Source: Lunatibacter salilacus (lineage in GTDB: Bacteria > Bacteroidota > Bacteroidia > Cytophagales > Cyclobacteriaceae). Taken from it: a stretch of DNA of 64,000 bases. A program made the translations under genes and the position numbers. Of this stretch, positions 5,067-34,022 are shown in pieces (the stretch's first letter is position 1; every line of letters starts with the position of its first letter). The notes below the pieces were generated by a model that made no database searches, was not told the DNA's origin, and was given only the letters and a program-made list of their open reading frames with translations. Location of the stretch: assembly GCF_009797935.1 (NCBI RefSeq), contig NZ_VOLC01000009.1:1-64000 (forward strand), written 5' to 3'.

Positions 5067-5999
5067 TTACTGGTTTGATTTTTCCAGGTATTCCTCAATT
5101 TGCTCATTGCTTACAGCTAATTGACGGGGATACGTTTTCACCCATGCACGGAATTCATTTTTTATGGTCTCATTCCATTGCCCGTGGACCTCTCCGGAGG
5201 GGTATTTGCCTTCTTGCAACAGGACCCGCTCAAACTCATCCCGCAGTCCTACGAGTTCGGAGGTGACTACCAAGTCTTCGACAAGATGGGCAGGTATAAA
5301 GGCCGTCCCGTAATCATTGGCAAAGACAATATCACCAGGAAAGACAGTAACCTCACCTATTCGAATTGGCGCATTGATCGATGTAGGTGTCATGTCTTTT
5401 ATAAAGGATGGGTCATGTCCTTTAATCCAAGCGTTGAACCCATCAGTATCCCTGAGCTCCTGCATATCCCGTATAGAGCCATAAAATACAACACCTTTTC
5501 CGGTCTTACCATAAATCGCATTTCCCAAGCTAGAACCAATTAGAGTGCCGTCCTTTACTTTTCCGTAACCGTCAGCCACATAGATATCGCCTTTAGTCAG
5601 GATGTCAATGGGCCAAATATTAATACCTCCCCGCTGAGAGCGTCCTTCTGCCTTTCCCACCGCCCTTACCAAACTATCTAAATCAGGGCGGGAGGGCATA
5701 AACTGGGCAGTTAAGGCCCTTCCTACCATGGTCCTCCCCGGTTTCAGAATTACCCAGTCTTTCTCGACTTGGTTTCTGTATCCTTTTCTGAGTAGATAGC
5801 CCCAAACTTGCTCGAGTGTCGCCGTTTCAAGACGTTCGAGCATAATGTCGGGTACCTTTGGCCTTCCGTCTTCAAAACGATCTCCTTTCCATTGGGAGGT
5901 TAAGGCGGTGATTTGTTCGGGTGTGGAACCAATTTGTTGTGCCTGCAAATGAAGGCTGAGGGGAAATAGGAAGATTAATAGTAAGATGCGAGTTTTCAT
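5067..5999 (-). CDS. Exported RraA/HMG-aldolase-like protein
   Basis: A 310-residue protein of the RraA/dimethylmenaquinone-methyltransferase-like fold, a family that includes 4-hydroxy-4-methyl-2-oxoglutarate aldolases and RNase E regulators. An N-terminal signal peptide (residues 1-20, ending LHLQAQQ) means this one is exported, which is unusual for the fold. The core shows the glycine-rich GSSLGNAIYGKTGKG region and the GSIRDMQELRD motif, where the RD pair matches the family's substrate/metal site. Its 5' end faces the regulatory gap in front of susC and it lies beside a sulfatase, so a role in sugar-acid or lyase-product breakdown is plausible but inferred. Confidence 0.82.
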   Translation of the reverse strand: MKTRILLLIFLFPLSLHLQAQQIGSTPEQITALTSQWKGDRFEDGRPKVPDIMLERLETATLEQVWGYLLRKGYRNQVEKDWVILKPGRTMVGRALTAQFMPSRPDLDSLVRAVGKAEGRSQRGGINIWPIDILTKGDIYVADGYGKVKDGTLIGSSLGNAIYGKTGKGVVFYGSIRDMQELRDTDGFNAWIKGHDPSFIKDMTPTSINAPIRIGEVTVFPGDIVFANDYGTAFIPAHLVEDLVVTSELVGLRDEFERVLLQEGKYPSGEVHGQWNETIKNEFRAWVKTYPRQLAVSNEQIEEYLEKSNQ

Positions 6000-6686
6000 A
6001 TGTTTTTCTTGGGTTTAATTAAAGTTAGTTGGGAATATAAGGAATATCCCTAAAAGGTGCAGGGCTTAATTGATTTTATAGTGAAGGAACTTTGGTATTA
6101 TTAGACATCAATTTCATGTTAATGGGATGGATAGACGAACTCAAATATTAAATTAAAAATTTAAGCTGTATAAACGGTTACTAAATAAAATTTTTCTGTA
6201 AAAAATACCAAATTCAAATTAGTAAACGGTTATTTTTCCGGCTCGAGATATTCATTTAAATTCTGTCCATTATTTCCCATAGATATTTTACAATAAAATC
6301 AATCAAATTGTTATAGGATTCCAAAAAATATGACGAATTTAATTTTTTAATTGAACATTATCCAGTAAATAAATTTGTATAATAACTTATTTATTAAAAA
6401 AAGTAATGTTAATGTAGGCTAACGACAAAGGACTTTTGGTTTCAAAGCCAAATTGTTAAAACTTCGATTAAATAAATTAACCAAAAGCCAATAATTAATA
6501 AATTTTTTTGTAAAGTTACAGTTCAAAACAAGAATTGTGTAAAAAGTCTGTTTCACAAAATGTATGTACTGCCTATGGGAAAAGATCTAAAAGAAAGGGG
6601 TTTAATTGAATCTCTTTAAAATTATCCATTCAAATCAAACCTAAACCAATCGCATTAGCGGTTGAAACAATTTATCTATCAAAAAA
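6000..6686. other. AT-rich divergent regulatory gap before susC
   Basis: This 687-bp gap between the divergent RraA-like gene and susC has no credible gene. It is strongly AT-rich, as usual upstream of SusC operons. Two things stand out: the duplicated taaacggtta motif (6171-6180 and 6223-6232) and a TAAATTTG box at 6370-6377 matching the Bacteroidetes -7 consensus. The best upstream TTG (6351-6353) is 16 bp away, slightly short, so that promoter call is weak. Confidence 0.5.
6171..6232. promoter_or_regulatory. Candidate operator pair, taaacggtta x2
   Basis: An exact 10-mer, taaacggtta, occurs at 6171-6180 and again at 6223-6232, spaced 52 bp (about five helical turns). The first is followed by ct and the second is preceded by ag, so together they suggest an extended partly palindromic site centred on CG, the shape of many LacI-family operators. 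It lies between the RraA-like gene and susC. The regulator is not in the window. Confidence 0.4.
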
Positions 6687-9600
6687 ATGAAAAATGAAAA
6701 AACACTACTAATGAATGGCCTTTTAAGAAAAGGGACCTTGTTCCTTTTACTTCAAGGGTTTTTGCTGTCGGTAACGGCCGCTAGTTTTGCCGCAATTTCC
6801 CCCGCAAACAACAGCGTTGAAGCATTTTTGGAAAATGATGCGGATATTACTATAAACGGTGTGATCATCGACGAAAACGAGATGCCGCTTCCCGGGGTTA
6901 CTATTACTGTACGGGGAACTTCAACAGGGACAGTTACAGATGTAAATGGTGCCTATTCTATAGTTGCCCCGGAAAATGGCACCTTGGTATTCTCCTTTAT
7001 CGGATTTAAGGCGCAGACGGTTGCCATAGGTAACAGATCCACCATCAACTTGACGATGGTAGAGGATATAGGTGCTTTGGATGAGTTTGTCGTAACATCT
7101 TTTGGCGTTGCCCGTGAGCAAAAATCCTTGGGTTATGCTACGACAACAATTCGCTCTGATGAGTTGATCAAAGTAGGTACGCCAAATTTGGCAACCGCTT
7201 TATATGGTAAAGCGCCGGGTGTACGTATTCAATCTGCCGCCGGTGGAGCTACCTCGGCGGTAAACATAACTGTGAGGGGAATCAACTCCATTACGGGAAG
7301 GAATCAGCCTTTAATAATCTTGGATGGTGTACCTATTCGAAATGAAGAAGTAAATAACAACGACTATTGGGGTGATCAGCGTCTGCGGGGTAACGGTCTT
7401 TTGGACATCAACCCGGAAGATATTGACAATATTTCCATCCTAAAGGGTGCGTCTGCAGCAGCATTATATGGATCAGAAGCAGTAAACGGCGTTGTGTTGA
7501 TAACTACCAAAACGGGAAGTTCAGATAAGAAGGGCTTTAGCGTAGATTTCAATGCCAACTATTCCATGGATCAAATTGCCTACCTGCCCCGCTATCAAAA
7601 TGTAAGGGGCCCTGGTGCGCCGGTACAGTCGGGACTTACTTTTGCAAGAAACGGCGTAAATGAAGACGGCTTTTTCATTTATGATGATGGATCTAGGGGT
7701 CTTCCTGCGACGAATGTCAATTTCGGAGCACCTTTCGATGGGCAGCCGGCAATGGCATGGGATGGTCAGATGAGGCCTTACGTGGCGCAAACGAACAATT
7801 ACGATGCCTTGTTTAATAGCCCCATCAATTCTCAAGTTAACGTGGCTATTGCCAATTCCACAGATTTAGCTGACTATAGGGTTTCACTTACCCGTCAGGA
7901 CAATGAAGGCCTGAGCCTCAACTCTAAAAACAGCAAAAATGTGATGAATCTAAATTCCACCTTTAGGGTTTCCAAAAAGGTACGGACAGATTTGATGATT
8001 AATTATATCAATCAAAACACCGCAAACCGACCAGTTTCGGTTGATAGGTTGATCAATAATTTTGGTGGAATGATGACCCGTTTTGACAACGGAGCCTGGT
8101 ATTTGGATAAATATAAGACAAGCAGAGGATATCGGTATGTAACAGGAAATGGTCAAAGTCTTACAATGGATGAAAACATCGTACGAAACGGCTTTATGGA
8201 CGCCATCGGTGACTATGCGTGGCGGGTAAATGAACAACGTGCCTCTGAGATTAGCAACCGAGTTATTTCCAGTTTGACAAATCATATTGAAATCACAGAT
8301 GAATTGTCATTGCGGGCAAGGGTTTCTACAGATTTTACGTATAGAAACAGTGAAACAAGTTCAACTTCAGAGCGTCCGTTGGTGTTTGGCCCTTCCGGCG
8401 GGTTTAGCATGCAAAATGAGACTTTCAACATCATGTATGGTGACTTGCTGTTGACCTACAGAAAAAGCCTTACAGAAGATATCACCTTATCTGCGATGGC
8501 CGGCTACACAGCAAACAAAGAAACATTTTCATCAATTTCCCGCGGCACGGCTGGCGGTTTAAATATTGAAAATTTATTTGATTTAGTAGCTTCAGTAAAT
8601 ATCCCAAATAATAATTCCGCTAGAAGGACTAGGGTAATTGATGCAACTTTGGGAACTATTAATTTTGACTACAAAGGAATTTGGTATGTTGAAGGCACTG
8701 TCCGAAGAGACAGAACCTCTACCATGAGCCCAAACAACAATACCTTTTACTATCCTTCGGTAAACACTAGTTTTATTCTGTCTGATGCAGTTGAATTGCC
8801 TAGATTTATCAATTTTGCAAAGCTAAGAGGTTCTTGGGGCATAGTGGGTAACTATCCCGATATCTATAGAGCAAACATAGCATACTCACAAAATACATTG
8901 GGGGAGCAGCAGCCGGGAGGATCACCTGTATTATTTACGACGATACCCGGAGGCTTTGGGAATGACGGGATTATTCCCGAGCAGAAGAATGAATATGAAT
9001 TTGGCTTGGAAAGCCGCTTTTTTAATGGCCGCTTGAATTTAGAGATTTCTTATTACAATGCTCAAATCAGGGATCAAATATTGCCTTTAACGCTTCCGTG
9101 GACAGCCGGAGCAGGATCTGTTCTAGCTAATGTAGGTACCTTACGCAACAAAGGAATAGAAATTGCGCTAAACGGGCAGGTTTTCCAAAGAAGTGGATTT
9201 TCATGGGATGCGGGAATCAATTTCGCCAGAAACAAGAACGTGGTAGAACAGTTGGCGAACAATGCCACCGAACTCCTGCGTGCGGATTACGATGGCAATG
9301 CAGCCCAGTTGCGCGCTGTTGTGGGTAGACCTATGGGTGATTTCTTTGCCCGGCCGATAGAAACAAACGCCAGCGGACAAAAAATTGTTCAGCCAAACGG
9401 GATGTACAAAATTGATCCAAATAATTGGATCTTGGCTGGCAACGCCATGCCTAAGGCCGTTGGTGGTATCTTCAACAACTTCCAATATAAGAACTTTTCT
9501 TTGGATATGATGGCGGATTTTCAGATTGGTGGCCACGTGATGCCAACTGGTGTCAATTGGATGACGAGTAGAGGATTGACAGAGGCTAGCTTACAAAACA

Positions 9601-23125: not shown

Positions 23126-23491
23126 CTAAACATCTAAAAAAATTAAATCCAATTCTTCAATCTTAACTAATCCTTTGTCCGCTGTCACGAGGGGAAGTTC
23201 ATGGACAATTGCTGTGGCGGCTATGATAGCATCAGGTAATTTTACAACATATTTTTTTCTAAGTAAAATCGCTTGTTCTTTCAAATCGTTGTTCCATCCC
23301 AACTCGTGGCAATCTTTGACAAGTTGCCTTAGCTTATCTTCTTCAACATTTGTAAGTCCCCCAAATCCCAACAACTCTATCTCAGTAATGAATGAAATGC
23401 CGAAGTTATATTTGAGAAAAGGTTCAATCAATTTATTGCCCTCGTGCACGTAAATTAAAATATTTGTGTCAGCAATAAAGTCAATCCTCAT
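23126..23491 (-). CDS. VapC-type PIN-domain toxin (module 1)
   Basis: A 121-residue PIN-domain ribonuclease, in this family usually a translation-blocking toxin that cuts tRNA or rRNA. The acidic metal-binding residues are in place: D8 (IADTNILIY), E37 or E39 (ITEIELLG), D87 (LPDAIIAATA) and D105 (TADKG). The protein is full length, so the module is probably functional. Its antitoxin gene overlaps the start by 11 bp, the standard order with antitoxin first. Confidence 0.92.
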   Translation of the reverse strand: MRIDFIADTNILIYVHEGNKLIEPFLKYNFGISFITEIELLGFGGLTNVEEDKLRQLVKDCHELGWNNDLKEQAILLRKKYVVKLPDAIIAATAIVHELPLVTADKGLVKIEELDLIFLDV

Positions 23492-25674: not shown

Positions 25675-26070
25675 TTAGCAACTAATTACCTGCAATCCCA
25701 GATAAGCTTCCATTGGATCGAAGTCCCTGTCGTGGTGTAATAAATGGATACGGTTTTCTACACAAAAAGTACCTATAATGACATCTATATTCTTTCTGAC
25801 AGTTATTCCCTTTTTTCTTAACGCCCTATAGTTTTCGGCGGCAATGATTGAAAGATCTTTATTGCAGAGATTAAAAAGCGGAAGTTCTTCCAAAACTTTC
25901 CTTGCTTGATGAAAATCCGAATCACTTTGAAACCCTTGCAGCACTTCCACAATAATCAGATCTCCGGTGACTATCATCTCATTGCCTAAAAGTTGATTTA
26001 GTTTTTCTGCCGGAGGACTATCCACCCCATTAAAAAAATCTATCCAGACAGATGAATCTACCAAGATCAT
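25675..26070 (-). CDS. VapC-type PIN-domain toxin (module 2)
   Basis: A 131-residue PIN ribonuclease: D5 in MILVDSSVWIDFF, E42 in IIVEVLQGF, an Asp in KNIDVIIGTFCVEN, and DRDF near the end complete the metal site. The length is normal. It is translationally coupled to its vapB (4-bp overlap). Its last codons overlap a toxin-like remnant on the other strand, showing that an older module was overwritten here. The target RNA is not known. Confidence 0.93.
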   Translation of the reverse strand: MILVDSSVWIDFFNGVDSPPAEKLNQLLGNEMIVTGDLIIVEVLQGFQSDSDFHQARKVLEELPLFNLCNKDLSIIAAENYRALRKKGITVRKNIDVIIGTFCVENRIHLLHHDRDFDPMEAYLGLQVISC

Positions 26071-26814: not shown

Positions 26815-27030
26815 GCCGTTTCGAAGCGTAATCGTCTTCACGACTGCCCCCTAAATCCCCCTGAAGGGGGACTTCAAATCCCATCGACTGAGATGAATTT
26901 TCTTACTTGACGTAATCTAGCTCCCTCCCTTTCAGTTGAAAATCCTGTGATAGCGTAGCGGTTACAGGAGAGAGGGCTGGGGTGGCGCAATTACGGAGCG
27001 GGGGTTCGGCTCCGCTCACCCCTCCGAGTT
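26815..27030. repeat. GC-rich REP-like element, copy 3
   Basis: Shares gccccctaaatccccctgaa, gctccctccctttcagttga, gatagcgtagcggttacagg and gggctggggtgg with the element at 22,660-22,920. Here the small gaaccgctacgct insertion is absent from the left half, giving the simpler uninterrupted hairpin. Confidence 0.65.
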
Positions 27031-27059
27031 GTGGCGCTGATCTACTCAAACCCCATAAA

Positions 27060-27095
27060 AAAGAAAAAAGCTATGAAACAAAATCTCATAGCTTT
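27060..27095 (-). terminator. Intrinsic terminator of the tRNA-like RNA gene
   Basis: On the minus strand a perfect 10-bp stem (aaagctatga, complement at 27067-27076 and 27086-27095) with a 9-nt loop is followed by ttttttcttttt. It sits 32 bp past the end of the tRNA-like structure and points the same way. Confidence 0.85.
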
Positions 27096-27126
27096 AGTCA
27101 ATTAACAATAAACCCAAAATAACCTG

Positions 27127-27250
27127 CTGTAGGAGAAGGAGTCGAACCTCCACGGGGCAGTTAGGTAAAACACGAGCTCGATATTTACTTTGTTCTGATG
27201 TCCCCACCCCCGAGACCGGAGGGCATGTCTGCCAGTTTCATCATCCTACA
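27127..27250 (-). ncRNA. tRNA-like RNA with 55-nt variable arm and odd anticodon loop
   Basis: The 124 nt fold as a class II tRNA. The acceptor stem tgtagga/tcctaca is 7 perfect bp. Positions 8-9 are tg. The D stem atg/cat encloses aaactggcaga, with the GG pair as in tRNA-Leu. The anticodon stem is ccctc/ggggg, and the T arm is ggagg-ttcgact-ccttc. Two things are abnormal. The 7-nt anticodon loop is cggtctc, with G instead of the near-universal U at position 33 and U at 37, giving a nominal GUC. The variable region is 55 nt (class II norm 11-24) and can form gggg/cccc and gtaaa/tttac stems. CCA is not encoded. A consensus promoter and an intrinsic terminator frame it, so it is very probably expressed. 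It may be a non-decoding tRNA mimic, an atypical tRNA or a decayed tRNA. Confidence 0.75.
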
Positions 27251-27294: not shown

Positions 27295-27326
27295 CAAAGG
27301 TAATAGATGAACCTTTATGTTGCAAA
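27295..27326 (-). promoter_or_regulatory. Consensus promoter of the tRNA-like RNA
   Basis: Minus strand: TTTG (27323-27326), 20-bp spacer, TACCTTTG (27295-27302). Both boxes match the Bacteroidetes -33/-7 consensus exactly. The RNA would begin about 37 nt before the acceptor stem. Confidence 0.75.
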
Positions 27327-27973: not shown

Positions 27974-30900
27974 CTAAATCCGCTCAAACATCAATTCAGG
28001 CAAAATAATCAGCCCCTCCCAACTTTGCTCCTCATCGGTCCAATAGACTAGATAGTTCACGGTTACGCTGGAGAGCTTATAGGGCTTCTCGACCATTTCC
28101 TCCAGTTCCCTTGCAAAGCTTTTCGAAAACTTCAGCACGGACTGTCCCCGTTCATTGAAGCATTCCCCTTCCTTCACAGTAAGCGTATCCCCACTTCGCA
28201 ACTGCATAATCCACGACTGCCTTCGCAAAAAGTAACCCAACCAAACATCTTTAAAAGTAAGTTGCCTCGCCAAAAGCTGGGGAGGAAAGGTAAACTTATT
28301 GTTATGCTGGTAAACCAAATTTTTGACCGAGAACCCGACCAAAAACTGACCGTTCAGATGAATGCTTAAATTTTGCTTGGCTCGGGTCATGGCCACATAG
28401 AGCATGCGGCGGAATTCAGGTGTTAAGTTCGGGGTCCTTTCCAGGATAATAAAGACATTATCGAACTCTTTGCCTTTGGCCTTATGGATAGTAGAAACAA
28501 ACACCGTCTCGGCCCTTTGCGGGAAAAAGTCCTCCAACTTTGACTCCCGGATAAAAGTATCCAAATCAGACCGATACCGGGTCTTGGGGTAGATCTGCTC
28601 AAAATCCGCAATCAGTTGCCGACAAATCTCCAACTTCGTGCTTCGCTCAAAATGTATTCCTAGCCGGTCCTTCGCTTGCTTCCAATTCTCCGCCGGAATG
28701 GTAAACACATCTTCAGGCAAATTCAATTGCCCCAAAAAGTACCGAACCTCATACAAATTAAATAAGCTAAACCCATCATTGGACTGTATCAGCTTGGCTG
28801 GTAACCCCCCTTTGATCAAAAGCCCAGCAATCTGCATTGCCTCTTCGTTGGTGCGGGTAAGTACGGCCACTGTACCGCTAAGACTACTACTTAACACATC
28901 CTCGACCACGGGGGAAATCAACGATTGCTCCATATAGGTAGTGATGGACAGCTTTCCGTTTGCCCGCTCCTTGGCTAGGATGGGTGCGGATTTAAGGCGG
29001 TTTGGTAGGGTGGACACCCACTGATTGGTAAAAGCCACCAAATTGGATCTACTCCGGTAGTTTTCCACCAGTTCATATTTGACAGCTTTTTGCTTGGTGA
29101 TAAATTGCTCCAAAAAAGCAGCACTGGAACCCCGAAACTCAAAAATATTCTGGTCGTCGTCACCCACGGCGATGACCCTTATTTCTTCGTTCTGCCCCAT
29201 CATCGCTTCTATCAGCGCAAATTCCTCCGCATTCATGTCTTGGGCCTCGTCAATTACCAAGACGGTGCGGGTTACTTCCCGGACTTCCACTTCCCCCACT
29301 TTGATTTTTTCGGTAGCCTGCCGCACGATATCCGTAGATCCTTCAAGATTTCCCACCCTACCCAGAATATCAAAGCAGTAGGAATGGAAGGTTTTGATAT
29401 CCACCCAAAGTGCTACATTGCCAATCAGGTCGATTAACCGCTTCTTGAATTCCGTCGCTGCCGCCCTGGAAAAGGTCAACATCAACAACTGCTCATGTTT
29501 TACATCTTCCATTAGCAAAAGGGAAGCAAGTTTGTGCACAAGTACCCGTGTTTTGCCACTGCCCGGTCCCGCAGCAACTACAATATGTTGAGCTTTGTTG
29601 TCTTTGATGATGGCTAGCTGCGCCGGCGATAGTTCCCCAAAAAGCTGCTTGAATTTTTTTGGCGTGATGTTTTGCCTGATTTCCTTCTGTCGGCTTGCAT
29701 TGAAATACTTTCGGAGAAAAGAGGGATAATTTAACTGGAAATAATCATCCACAAACTCTAAAGCTCCCTGATAATCCTGGATCATCCGCTTGGCATATTC
29801 CCCAACTATATGAATCTGCTGCACTTTGTTTTCGTAAAACTCACGGAGTTTCTCATAGTCCTCCGCTTTATACCGCCGCTTGTTGTCGGTTTCCAGCCGT
29901 TCGATCGTCAACCGGTTATAGACCACCAAAAATCCGCCCTCAATCTTTATGGCTTCGATTTTGGAAAGATAATACAAGGTGTCTTCAATATCAGCGATGC
30001 TGATATCCAAAATAAACAGAGCGGAATGGGTCTGATAAGCGTCTTTCAGTTCGTGAACGGAGAATTCTACTAATACCTCGCTTTTGGCTTCATTTTCTCC
30101 CTGTTGCCTGCTTTTTTGGTAAAGGTGCTCAATGATAAATTTGGACAGCACGTGCCGCTTTTCGAGTTTTTCTTTGAGCTGCTCCTTATCCACAGTCAAT
30201 TTGATCTTGAGGTGGTTTTTGGAAAGTCGGCTTGGTTGGCTTTTTGCCCAGTGTTTGATACTCCAATAGTTGATCAGCGTTTTGACCAATTGGGTAGATA
30301 CCTCCTCTCCTAATGAGAGGGCCGCATCTTCATTAAGTGCTTTGAGCGAGTAGACTTTCGGTTCTTCTTGGATTTGTGTGAGGAGGAATTTTTCCAGCTT
30401 ACTGTAAAGCTCAACCAAAGCCACAGACCGGTTGGCTGTTTCGCCCTGCTTGATAAATGCGGTAAGGTCTTTGGCATCGGCCAGGATATCCTCCTCACGC
30501 AGGAGATTGATGATATTGATCACTTCCTCTCTGACAATCCCCAAATGGTCTGAGATATAATCCACCCGTGATTCTGCCGCTTCATCACTCGCTGCCTTTT
30601 TACTTTTACTTGAAAAGAGTTTCTTAATAATCCGAGTTCCCGCTACCTTCTGTTTATCATCAAACCGTGGGGAAGTTTGGATTTTATCAATGGCCTCTTG
30701 TGCGTTTTTTGATAGGATGCTGTTGGCAAAAATCCGGGGCATGTTTTGGCCTCTTTTGAGGTAGCCGGCATCTTCCAAGGCAGCGATAGCTGTTGTCACA
30801 CGGGTTTCTATATCTACAATGCTGTCATCCCACCCCGCCTTCCGGGCAATTTCCAGAGCCGAATTGGAGGCGGTACTGCGAAAATGCGTTACCTCCTTGA

Positions 30901-32776
30901 TGGCCTTCCATACCTGCTGAATCTCTTTGATGCTCAGTTTGGTCTGGTTTAGCATGATAAAATGCTTACTCAGATCTTCCTCATCAAAAAGCACATAGCA
31001 GGACGCTTCGATGGCCTCATCCCTTCCCGCACGCCCAGCCTCCTGCACATAGTTTTCCAGGGAATCTGATATTTCATAGTGCACGACAAGGCCAACATCC
31101 TTTTTGTCCACTCCCATTCCAAAAGCGGAGGTGGCCACCATAATGGGAATTACTCCCGAGATAAAGGCATTTTGATTTTCAGCCTTTTCCTTCTTATCCA
31201 TTTTGCCGTGATACGGCAATGCCTGAAAACCGTCCGTATTCAAGCGCTGGGAAAGTTCGTAGGCTTTTCTGGTTCGGGAGACATATACAATAGTAGGGCA
31301 GGCTTTTGAGGAGATCAAATCCCGTAATGCCGCATATTTATCCTCCTCTTCCCGGCGTTCAAAAACTTTATAATTAAGATTGGTACGGGAGACGCCAGAA
31401 CGGAATATGCTGAAACGTATACCCAACTTTTCCTTGAAATAGTGTTGAATATCCTCGATTACCTTTTGCTTTGCCGTTGCCGTAAAACAGGAAACAGGGA
31501 TACCCTCACTCAATTGCTTTTTCTCCTGCAGCTCTTTTATGAAATCTCCTATATACAGGTAGTCGACCCGAAAGTCCTGACCCCATGAAGAAAAGCAATG
31601 GGCCTCATCGATAACGAATCGGCTGATCTTGCGGCCAAGAAATAGCCGTTCTATACTTTTGGATCGTAGGGATTCCGGGGAAATATAGAGCAAGGCCGCA
31701 GAGCCGTCTTCCACCCGCTCAAAGGATTTAGCCCGATCGATGGGATCAAGGAGTCCATTAATGGTGACGGCCGACGTAATTCCACTGGCCTCCAGGTTAT
31801 CCACTTGGTCTTTCATCAGGGATTGTAATGGAGAAATGACTACCGTCAATCCACGCTCACTTTCCCCGCTCATCAGGGCGGGCACCTGAAAGGTAATGGA
31901 CTTCCCTCCCCCGGTGGGGAATACCGCTAATACGGACTTTTGCATCACCGCAGCTTGTACCGCTGACTCCTGCAAGGGTTCATCTCCGAATTTCCGAAAG
32001 GCGTCAAAGCCAAAGAATTTTTTTAATCCCAGTTGAATATCAAGTGCCTTATCACAATAGGAACATCCGGTAAGACAAGGCCTATTTCGCAACAAGGAAA
32101 TTACACGGTCTACCTCCGGAAAAGTCCTCAGTACCCAAGGTGGAGTCACCGAACGGACATCCCCTCCCTGTATTAGCGCTAGGCAATAGGCCATTTCCCG
32201 GGGGCTTTCTTTGATAAGTTTGGTTAGGGGAGCTGAAGCGCAGATTTCATTTTTGAAAAGCTCGTAAATAAGTTCTTCCGCTGAATTACCGGTATGGGAA
32301 TACCCCATGTACGAAAAGAAACCTTTAAACTCTGCTTGATTTTTCAGCAGCAGGTAATAAATTTGCTTTACCCTGTCGGACATATGCTGAAAAGCCGTGC
32401 ATTCATCTTGAAAAAGATCTTTTGCTTTCTGGGCATCATTTAAAGGATTATTGACACTGTCCGTCAAGAGTTTATCGTCCTTAAGCAGGGCATGGTATGG
32501 GCGATTGGGAAAAAGGAGGGGTGAAAGGTATAAGGTATCTATTACTTTAAACCGCTCCAGACCACCCGCTTGGGCAAACGTTGATTTAAGATAAAGAAGG
32601 TCGTGATGAATAATATTGTGTCCGCAGAGAAAACGTCTTTTGCCTATAAATGAAATCAATCCGGCCGGATTATTGGCATGAAAAGTACTGCCGTCTTCCG
32701 CCACCGCACCGATATCCAGCACTCTTTTTTGCTGGGGATTGACTTCTGTATCTAAACAAATATATGGGTTCACCAA
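27974..32776 (-). CDS. Exonuclease-RecQ-UvrD fusion DNA helicase
   Basis: A 1,600-residue three-part DNA repair enzyme. Residues 1-130 form a DEDD-type 3'-5' exonuclease domain (LDTE at 8-11, HNIIHHD ending at D59). A Cys cluster follows (CLTGCSYC, 234-241). A RecQ-type superfamily 2 helicase spans about 265-600, with Walker A TGGGKS at 288-293, DEAH at 390-393 and QEAGRAGRD near 578-586. A middle region (620-1040) has winged-helix-like segments. The C-terminus is a UvrD/Rep-type superfamily 1 helicase, with AGPGSGKT at 1069-1076, DEAQD at 1176-1180 and YVAMTRAKQNL near the end. Both motors look intact. It probably unwinds branched or recombining DNA. It stands alone, divergent from mnmH. Confidence 0.9.
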   Translation of the reverse strand: MVNPYICLDTEVNPQQKRVLDIGAVAEDGSTFHANNPAGLISFIGKRRFLCGHNIIHHDLLYLKSTFAQAGGLERFKVIDTLYLSPLLFPNRPYHALLKDDKLLTDSVNNPLNDAQKAKDLFQDECTAFQHMSDRVKQIYYLLLKNQAEFKGFFSYMGYSHTGNSAEELIYELFKNEICASAPLTKLIKESPREMAYCLALIQGGDVRSVTPPWVLRTFPEVDRVISLLRNRPCLTGCSYCDKALDIQLGLKKFFGFDAFRKFGDEPLQESAVQAAVMQKSVLAVFPTGGGKSITFQVPALMSGESERGLTVVISPLQSLMKDQVDNLEASGITSAVTINGLLDPIDRAKSFERVEDGSAALLYISPESLRSKSIERLFLGRKISRFVIDEAHCFSSWGQDFRVDYLYIGDFIKELQEKKQLSEGIPVSCFTATAKQKVIEDIQHYFKEKLGIRFSIFRSGVSRTNLNYKVFERREEEDKYAALRDLISSKACPTIVYVSRTRKAYELSQRLNTDGFQALPYHGKMDKKEKAENQNAFISGVIPIMVATSAFGMGVDKKDVGLVVHYEISDSLENYVQEAGRAGRDEAIEASCYVLFDEEDLSKHFIMLNQTKLSIKEIQQVWKAIKEVTHFRSTASNSALEIARKAGWDDSIVDIETRVTTAIAALEDAGYLKRGQNMPRIFANSILSKNAQEAIDKIQTSPRFDDKQKVAGTRIIKKLFSSKSKKAASDEAAESRVDYISDHLGIVREEVINIINLLREEDILADAKDLTAFIKQGETANRSVALVELYSKLEKFLLTQIQEEPKVYSLKALNEDAALSLGEEVSTQLVKTLINYWSIKHWAKSQPSRLSKNHLKIKLTVDKEQLKEKLEKRHVLSKFIIEHLYQKSRQQGENEAKSEVLVEFSVHELKDAYQTHSALFILDISIADIEDTLYYLSKIEAIKIEGGFLVVYNRLTIERLETDNKRRYKAEDYEKLREFYENKVQQIHIVGEYAKRMIQDYQGALEFVDDYFQLNYPSFLRKYFNASRQKEIRQNITPKKFKQLFGELSPAQLAIIKDNKAQHIVVAAGPGSGKTRVLVHKLASLLLMEDVKHEQLLMLTFSRAAATEFKKRLIDLIGNVALWVDIKTFHSYCFDILGRVGNLEGSTDIVRQATEKIKVGEVEVREVTRTVLVIDEAQDMNAEEFALIEAMMGQNEEIRVIAVGDDDQNIFEFRGSSAAFLEQFITKQKAVKYELVENYRSRSNLVAFTNQWVSTLPNRLKSAPILAKERANGKLSITTYMEQSLISPVVEDVLSSSLSGTVAVLTRTNEEAMQIAGLLIKGGLPAKLIQSNDGFSLFNLYEVRYFLGQLNLPEDVFTIPAENWKQAKDRLGIHFERSTKLEICRQLIADFEQIYPKTRYRSDLDTFIRESKLEDFFPQRAETVFVSTIHKAKGKEFDNVFIILERTPNLTPEFRRMLYVAMTRAKQNLSIHLNGQFLVGFSVKNLVYQHNNKFTFPPQLLARQLTFKDVWLGYFLRRQSWIMQLRSGDTLTVKEGECFNERGQSVLKFSKSFARELEEMVEKPYKLSSVTVNYLVYWTDEEQSWEGLIILPELMFERI

Positions 32777-32993: not shown

Positions 32994-34022
32994 ATGGATG
33001 TAGCAACAATAGAAGATTTCCTGGCATTACGAACATCCTTCCCTGTTTTGGATACCCGATCTCCTGGAGAATTTGACTCCGGACATATGGCTAATGTCAT
33101 TAATTTGCCACTTTTTGACAATGAGGAACGTGCAAGGGTAGGAACGGCCTACAAACAGCAAAGCAAGCAAGAAGCCATCAAATTGGGCCTGGAAATAGTG
33201 GGTCCAAAAATGGTCGGTTTTATTGAAACAGCGGAAAAACTTGACTCCAAGCATCTTCTTATCCACTGCTGGAGAGGGGGTATGCGGTCAAAAAGTGTCG
33301 CTTGGCTAATGGAAACATATGGGTTCCAGGTGACTACACTTGCCGGAGGATATAAGGCCTATCGGAAGGCAGTATTGGATTACTTCAATCAGCCCTTGCG
33401 GCTTCAGGTATTGACTGGTGCCACGGGATCCCGGAAGACGGCTGTTCTACATGCGCTTAGGGAGATGGGTGAGCAAGTCATTGATCTGGAGGGACTGGCC
33501 AATCACAACGGATCCAGTTTTGGCAACCAACTCAGCACCGGACAACCTACAACGGAACAGTTTCAAAATGACCTATTTGAAAGCTTCCGAATATTAGATC
33601 CTGCGGAACGGATATGGATAGAAGATGAATCCTTTACAATAGGAAAAGTAAAACTGATCGAACAGCTCTACTGGCAAAAGCAACAATCACCCCATATCTT
33701 AATTCATTTGCCCATGGAGGCAAGGGTTAAAGCTTTGGTGGAAGACTATGGGAAAATTCCTCCCGAAAAATTGATTATAGCCACCAATCAGATCGCAGAA
33801 AGACTAGGTAGGAGTAAGGCCGTTGAGGCCACTGAATTTATTCAAGAAGGAAATCTACCTGATGCCGTTTATATCATCTTGGAATATTATGATAAAGCGT
33901 ACACGAAAGGAATCCGGAAAAAATCACCCATGATCCAACATGAGGTTGCTTTTGATACATCAGACCCCTATGAAATGGCAAACCAGCTCCTTCAAATCGT
34001 CAATCCCGCAAATAAAATATAA
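32994..34022 (+). CDS. mnmH: tRNA 2-selenouridine synthase
   Basis: A 342-residue enzyme (also SelU/YbbB) that swaps sulfur for selenium in 2-thiouridine at the wobble position of tRNA-Lys, -Glu and -Gln, through a geranylated intermediate. The N-terminal rhodanese domain carries the active Cys92 in [16 protein letters not shown]. The C-terminal P-loop domain starts [12 protein letters not shown] (141-152). It is followed after one base by selD, which supplies selenophosphate, so the two form a selenium-modification operon. Confidence 0.96.

Follow-up and report, generated by a model that had tools for sequence, protein, structure and literature searches.

This locus raises the question of what an RNA with the body of a tRNA, an unusual anticodon loop and transcription signals of its own might be for. 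In the window (the whole 64,000-nucleotide stretch of Lunatibacter salilacus DNA that was analysed), the original prediction had described a minus-strand cloverleaf with a perfect 7-bp acceptor stem, a tRNA-Leu-like D arm, a standard T arm, a 55-nt variable region and an anticodon loop with G33, U37 and the nominal anticodon GTC; bracketed by a promoter and by a terminator formed of a hairpin and T-run. All of these parts are present in the window sequence (Table 1). Neither ARAGORN nor Rfam 15 makes a call at the RNA, and Rfam at loose thresholds returned chance matches only. Beside the terminator lies a G+C-rich inverted-repeat element (about 26910–27035) that recurs downstream of copy L002 of the RNA in the same genome. 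Elsewhere in the window are genes for a tRNA 2-selenouridine synthase, MnmH (32994–34022, plus strand; NCBIfam 351.7 bits), and for a 1600-amino-acid protein with RecQ-like and UvrD/PcrA-like helicase regions in a single chain (27974–32776, minus strand).

Table 1. Features of the tRNA-like RNA locus, in window positions.
Feature	Position	Strand	Support
tRNA-like RNA gene, positions 1–73 (124 nt; T1 = 27250, G73 = 27127) plus encoded C74 (27126)	27126..27250	-	R1 130.6 bits; family covariation
Acceptor stem, 5' strand TGTAGGA; U1 pairs with A72 (GatCAB-type determinant), G2 with C71	27244..27250	-	U1-A72 277/280, G2-C71 280/280
Acceptor stem, 3' strand TCCTACA	27128..27134	-	Double compensatory changes in 5/7 acceptor pairs
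Discriminator G73 and encoded C74	27126..27127	-	G73 and C74 in 279/279 units
D arm ATG-AAACTGGCAGA-CAT, tRNA-Leu-like, with C20 and without U20a	27225..27241	-	D arm of own tRNA-Leu(GAG) is TGGTGAAACTGGTAGACAC
Anticodon arm CCCTC-CGGTCTC-GGGGG (loop 27218-27212); Asp-type G34, U35, C36 and C38, with U37	27207..27223	-	Own tRNA-Asp loop CTGTCAC
Variable region, 55 nt: GGGG/CCCC base stem, CAG/CTG stem, internal loop AACAAA/CTAA, apical hairpin (27188-27165)	27152..27206	-	Stems covary, 47 sequences
T arm GGAGG-TTCGACT-CCTTC	27135..27151	-	Double changes in 4/5 pairs
Bacteroidota-type promoter TTTG-N20-TACCTTTG	27295..27326	-	Upstream enrichment across family
Intrinsic terminator, 10-bp hairpin and T-run	27060..27095	-	Kept in own-genome copies L002-L004

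The L. salilacus genome carries five copies of the RNA, that in the window included, and they form part of a large, previously unrecorded family. A covariance model (R1) recovered exactly five members there at 112–131 bits, with ordinary tRNA-Leu below 54 bits, and related copies in this genome were also found by BLAST. BLAST matches were obtained in 90 of 117 relatives; a motif scan of GTDB species genomes gave at least 117 stretches, the titles among the matches listed being all Bacteroidota; and the same scan of IMG/VR gave 55 contigs, 54 of them scoring at least 74.7 bits with R1. Across 396 genomes of the phylum, true members scored at least 80 bits, ordinary tRNA-Leu no more than about 63, and two intermediate scores were resolved as a 75-nt form (genome G082) and a full member (G205). 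The family set comprised 280 distinct sequences (units), 273 of them with a parsed anticodon loop; units also occur in tandem arrays of up to six (L042). Literature searches, which covered open-licence PMC papers, turned up no description of this RNA.

Relatives in which the stems are kept by paired changes, as the original prediction had anticipated, were abundant and covariation was strong. Pair counts in 47 diverse sequences showed 97.3% of cells to be paired, compared with 52–62% when slid; of the 28 pairs, 17 showed double changes, which occurred in 141 cells where shuffles gave 38, and none of 500 shuffles reached the observed value. It is this covariation that is decisive for a real RNA structure and not folding energy, which is unremarkable for the single window sequence (z = -0.59). 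The promoter motif TAnnTTTG was present within 150 nt upstream of 144 of 192 non-tandem cellular units (75%) by comparison with 8.3% of control windows. The idea of a mobile element was dropped, as the flanks are housekeeping loci that are conserved within the family.

The variable arm is built on a base stem that covaries, with a further stem and a conserved internal loop (RANAAA/CUAA). To these is added a simple hairpin or, in 38 of 41 phage and 60 of 239 cellular units, another conserved module containing GGGUUGACCAC. Dimerisation of the whole family via palindromic apical loops was considered and rejected; palindromes of at least 6 nt were found in 28 of 87 non-redundant apical regions where 41.9 were expected. 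Apical palindromes hold only in Cyclobacteriaceae and in the phage forms (at least 10 nt in 70%, versus 1.9% of shuffles). In the phage units (L195–L249) the slot after GACCAC is self-complementary over 8–12 nt and varies in sequence (GCCGGCCGGC, TCCTGCAGGA, GCTAGCTAGC, ACTGTGCACAGT and others); the keeping of this segment suggests a kissing dimer in these forms.

Several related RNAs differ in architecture. The 75-nt member in G082 (L306 3340–3414, minus strand) has lost the variable arm and is called tRNA-Asp(ATC) by ARAGORN; it has no AsnC neighbour, its genome has AsnA, and it is perhaps a decaying or repurposed copy. Short RNAs in Cyclobacteriaceae combine the family acceptor (TGTA...), T arm and 3' trailer with unrelated middles of 66–94 nt (L005 1446, L045 4863, L046 5878, L058 5015, L070 4959, L071 4902, L073 4885 and L075 4486), at least that in L045 having its own promoter.

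As in elongator tRNAs, the cloverleaf of the family has a 7-bp acceptor stem, 5-bp anticodon and T stems, a TTCRANY T loop and a D-loop GG. Its 3' end, G73 followed by an encoded C74 in every unit scored, has the format of the ordinary tRNAs of the L. salilacus genome, 34/34 of which, among those parsed, encode C74, mostly without CCA. The Rfam tRNA model and ARAGORN make no call on members apart from the 75-nt form; and neither Rfam nor ARAGORN finds a tmRNA at the units, the tmRNA on contig L233 being a separate gene. The anticodon loop has the consensus C/U32-N33-G34-U35-C36-Y37-C38 with U35, C36, Y37 and C38 all at 273/273, a conservation that was partly forced by the first motif search, although members found by BLAST and by the model agree with it. 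G34 is present in 249/273 units (91%), the others including some with C34 or A34. At L302 and L306 the anticodon stem has a changed sequence that still pairs, under an unchanged loop. Elongator tRNAs have U33 and a purine at 37; in the family the former is found in 229/273 units and the latter in none of 273. G33, pointed out in the window RNA by the original prediction, is indeed there but is uncommon among the family members (30/273).

Comparison with known tRNA types places the family outside each of them. It shares with class II tRNA-Leu the D arm and a long variable arm but has G73 and not A73, U1-A72, an Asp-type loop and a variable region of 35–120 nt, and with R1 tRNA-Leu scores 43–63 bits against 80–132 for members. 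Allo-tRNA, selC* tRNA and tRNA-Sec are natural tRNAs that also have unusual long variable arms (PMC7609411), but these have lengthened acceptor and anticodon stems whereas the stems of the family are of 7 and 5 bp. The anticodon is NUC in all parsed units, not the GUU of tRNA-Asn; and by comparison with tRNA-Asp the family lacks G1-C72 and, in all units but L306, the short variable loop.

The loop itself is that of tRNA-Asp changed at positions 37 and 33, both of them important for decoding. Only one tRNA-Asp gene was detected in the L. salilacus genome, and position 37 is the sole difference between its loop and the family loop, CTGTCTC. The expectation that normal decoding is unlikely fits the pyrimidine found at 37 in all parsed units, a position 33 at which U is not required, and the presence of C34 and A34 members, which would misread if they decoded. 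An unusual yet decoding tRNA-Asp isoacceptor, to which the GUC anticodon, G73 and C38 would be suited and which would agree with the frequent placement of phage copies in tRNA arrays, is on these grounds extremely improbable: members with C34 would decode Glu codons, the L. salilacus genome and some phages also encode a normal tRNA-Asp, and U1-A72 as well as the associations with GatB, AsnB and AsnC described below would be left unexplained.

Strong determinants of aspartylation are G73, G34, U35, C36 and C38, while U1-A72 confers amidation of Asp-tRNA(Asn) and is opposed by G1-C72 and U20a (PMC9976931). The family combines the two sets. U1-A72 and G2-C71 are found in 277 and 280 of the 280 units respectively; G1-C72 and U20a are absent, with the D loop reading GGCAG (C20, A20a) in nearly all units; and among the tRNAs of the L. 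salilacus genome U1-A72 is found only in tRNA-Asn and tRNA-Gln. Judged by sequence, the RNA is a chimera in which the body resembles tRNA-Leu, the acceptor end resembles tRNA-Asn and the anticodon loop is of tRNA-Asp type. In an ordinary tRNA, carrying the aspartylation and amidation sets together would be intolerable, since asparagine would then enter at Asp codons. Together with the genomic associations below, these determinants make it very probable that the RNA serves as a dedicated non-decoding carrier for tRNA-dependent asparagine synthesis. Some points count against this: the family lacks both the short variable loop of tRNA-Asp and the G1-C72 pair that is usual in bacterial tRNA-Asp and is called crucial there (PMC9976931); the long arm might hinder AspRS; and 9% of units are without G34.

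In 99 genomes of the class, 38 with and 61 without the RNA, the GatB_N domain (PF02934) was detected in 38/38 of the former and 3/61 of the latter (38/0/3/58; Fisher 3e-24, overstated by kinship), and all 12 genomes of the class without the RNA in the first such test also lacked GatB. The converse was observed for AsnB orthologous to a 554-amino-acid Flavobacteriia-type query, which was present in 0/38 genomes with the RNA and 53/61 without it (Fisher 7e-20, again overstated by kinship). As these genomes are not phylogenetically independent, the p-values overstate the association and its weight is carried by within-family contrasts, such as family f23 with seven genomes having both RNA and GatB and three having neither; GatB was also present in 3/3 genomes with the RNA in f67. 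Exceptions were G031, with RNA, GatB and AsnB, and G133, G161 and G229, which are without RNA, GatB, AsnA and AsnB. Other AsnB-like paralogues, most of them above the TIGR01536 cut-off, are kept in genomes with the RNA, and AsnA, though rare, is present in four of these, so another asparagine route may exist in such genomes.

GlnRS was found in 14 of 20 genomes with the RNA that were tested, and an AsnRS-like PF00152 match in those of the 14 covered, the AsnRS assignment being a reading of the third PF00152 synthetase in a genome; with both synthetases present, GatCAB is unneeded for Gln- or Asn-tRNA in these strains. The L. salilacus genome has no GlnRS and its GatCAB is therefore needed for glutamine also. 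Absence of GlnRS likewise explains GatB in G157, one of the three GatB-positive genomes without the RNA. The other two, G267 and G313 (family f26), have GlnRS and a divergent GatB and are without the RNA or an AsnB orthologue; these may use another RNA or a non-discriminating AspRS. No extra AspRS or AsnRS paralogue was detected, with three PF00152 matches in genomes with and without the RNA alike (G099 has a fourth).

The AspRS enzymes that were compared have K, L or F, and not H, at the position of His31, a histidine characteristic of non-discriminating AspRS. These residues are consistent with a discriminating enzyme that needs the tRNA-like RNA as an amidatable substrate. They also bear on the possibility that the RNA is a regulator or scaffold, i.e. 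an uncharged or Asp/Asn-charged sensor, or a scaffold for an AspRS-GatCAB transamidosome acting on ordinary tRNA-Asn. Such a role would make sense of the large conserved variable arm with its separate GGGUUGACCAC module and of the palindromic loops in phage and Cyclobacteriaceae members, and the tRNA-Asn of the L. salilacus genome is likewise U1-A72; however, a sensor needs neither the full determinants of acceptor end and anticodon loop nor a tRNA-type 3' end, and the compared AspRS enzymes lack the His presumed to mark non-discrimination. We regard this role as improbable.

Genera of Bacteroidetes that have AsnRS, GlnRS and GatCAB but no asparagine synthetase were noted previously, and synthesis on tRNA-Asn was suggested (PMC4206432); the tRNA-like RNA is a better candidate substrate for these bacteria than tRNA-Asn.

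Of 164 eligible cellular loci, 79 have an AsnC-type gene divergent from, and upstream of, the first unit, mostly with a gap of 122–245 nt. This linkage extends over Cytophagales, Chitinophaga, Saprospiraceae, a Flavobacteriales MAG and family f67, which belongs to another class. The proteins have AsnC as their best NCBIfam match (155–175 bits versus 55–59 for Lrp), below the AsnC equivalog cut-off of 227. The window locus is among the cellular loci that lack this neighbour, most of which are additional copies at other sites. The asnC and asnA genes of E. coli K-12 are similarly divergent with a gap of 151 nt, and asnA is activated by AsnC except in the presence of asparagine (PMC4482635, PMC8707732); given this shared arrangement, the RNA occupies the position of asnA. 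None of 16 loci checked in Bacteroidota had AsnC beside AsnA or AsnB. The RNA gene seems to occupy the place that an asparagine-making enzyme has in other bacteria. The original prediction had weighed a regulatory RNA, a mimic of tRNA and an aberrant tRNA; the homologues that it called for exist and a non-decoding nature fits, but the Asp/Asn chimera and the links to GatCAB, AsnB and AsnC point to a metabolic carrier and away from a mimic or regulator. A further alternative is that the RNA is charged and amidated and passes its asparagine to a non-ribosomal acceptor in cell wall, lipid or peptide synthesis, a kind of role for which dedicated non-proteinogenic tRNAs are known (PMC9976931). All of the identity evidence would fit equally; the mutual exclusion with AsnB and the linkage to AsnC, however, indicate asparagine supply, and phage copies would be hard to explain, so that we give this only a small chance.

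In many phage-derived contigs from IMG/VR (presumed phage), the RNA lies inside tRNA arrays of up to about 25 tRNAs, sometimes with tmRNA; in others it is present without any other tRNA. No shared partner gene was found next to the RNA among the phage-contig neighbours compared, and one phage-type unit queried against INPHARED phages and PLSDB plasmids gave no match. Some jumbo-phage members have an extra D-arm hairpin before GGCAGAC (L210 4948, L216 2554, L233 7144, L249 8550 and others). The tRNA array of L205 encodes further tRNA-like RNAs, all on the minus strand (7684–7830, 6144–6262, 6479–6616, 5131–5276, 7948–8052 and 8138–8251); in these and in array RNAs of L207, L241, L242 and L210, a hypervariable middle of 50–100 nt replaces the anticodon arm between constant acceptor, D and T arms of tRNA-Leu type (A73). 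On L233, a GOLLD RNA (RF02032, 271.5 bits; 7432–7854, minus strand) immediately precedes a tRNA-Leu and the tRNA-like RNA, and the contig also carries tmRNA.

The window has a gene for a VapC toxin-like PIN protein (25675–26070) and a second PIN-domain ORF (23126–23491), both on the minus strand and about 1–4 kb from the RNA. With the phage copies, these neighbours would be in keeping with a decoy or guard RNA directed against anticodon nucleases or other tRNA-targeting defences. Other copies are away from toxins, and neighbourhoods of housekeeping type, the stable linkage to AsnC and the co-occurrence with GatB leave such a function very remote.

For the favoured asparagine carrier, the following sequence of events is proposed. 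The RNA would be transcribed from its own promoter, as the upstream enrichment supports, and mature like a tRNA with CCA added to an end that encodes C74. AspRS would charge it with aspartate via G34, U35, C36 and C38 together with G73, and GatCAB would amidate this to asparagine, with U1-A72 present and G1-C72 and U20a absent. The pyrimidine at 37 and an unconstrained position 33 would bar the charged RNA from Asp codons and so avoid insertion of asparagine for aspartate. In a putative last step the asparagine would be released or handed on, feeding AsnRS; transcription would respond to asparagine through the linked AsnC-type regulator, and a phage copy might, more speculatively, raise asparagine supply during infection. 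We consider it somewhat more probable than its negation that the full version applies, in which a non-decoding tRNA acts as a metabolic cofactor on which asparagine is made and then released free, an AsnC-regulated RNA gene replaces asparagine synthetase across several orders of Bacteroidota, and phages carry an auxiliary metabolic RNA.

Neither asparagine synthesis on tRNA nor the existence of non-proteinogenic tRNAs is new, yet as far as the open-licence PMC papers searched go a separate non-decoding RNA for asparagine synthesis is apparently undescribed. The established route on tRNA-Asn, with AspRS and GatCAB in Deinococcus, Thermus and Bdellovibrio, similarly has a U1-A72 RNA, charging with aspartate and amidation by GatCAB (both steps proposed here) and is similarly tied to absent asparagine synthetases (PMC4206432). 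It differs in using a decoding tRNA-Asn and a non-discriminating AspRS, whereas the present RNA is separate, has an Asp-type loop and is seemingly unable to decode. The peptidoglycan tRNA-Gly of Staphylococcus aureus is also a tRNA dedicated outside translation (PMC9976931), but for another amino acid and purpose and with another structure; it escapes EF-Tu, in contrast to the altered anticodon loop here.

If the proposal is correct, this would be a tRNA that has been withdrawn from decoding and is kept only for making an amino acid. It would allow asparagine synthesis on RNA without a promiscuous AspRS and without mistranslation of aspartate as asparagine, and would explain why GatCAB is retained in Bacteroidota that already have GlnRS and AsnRS. 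A widespread RNA family that Rfam lacks would be added to those known; predictions of asparagine auxotrophy would be corrected; and phages, it is suggested, would be carrying an RNA for amino acid supply.
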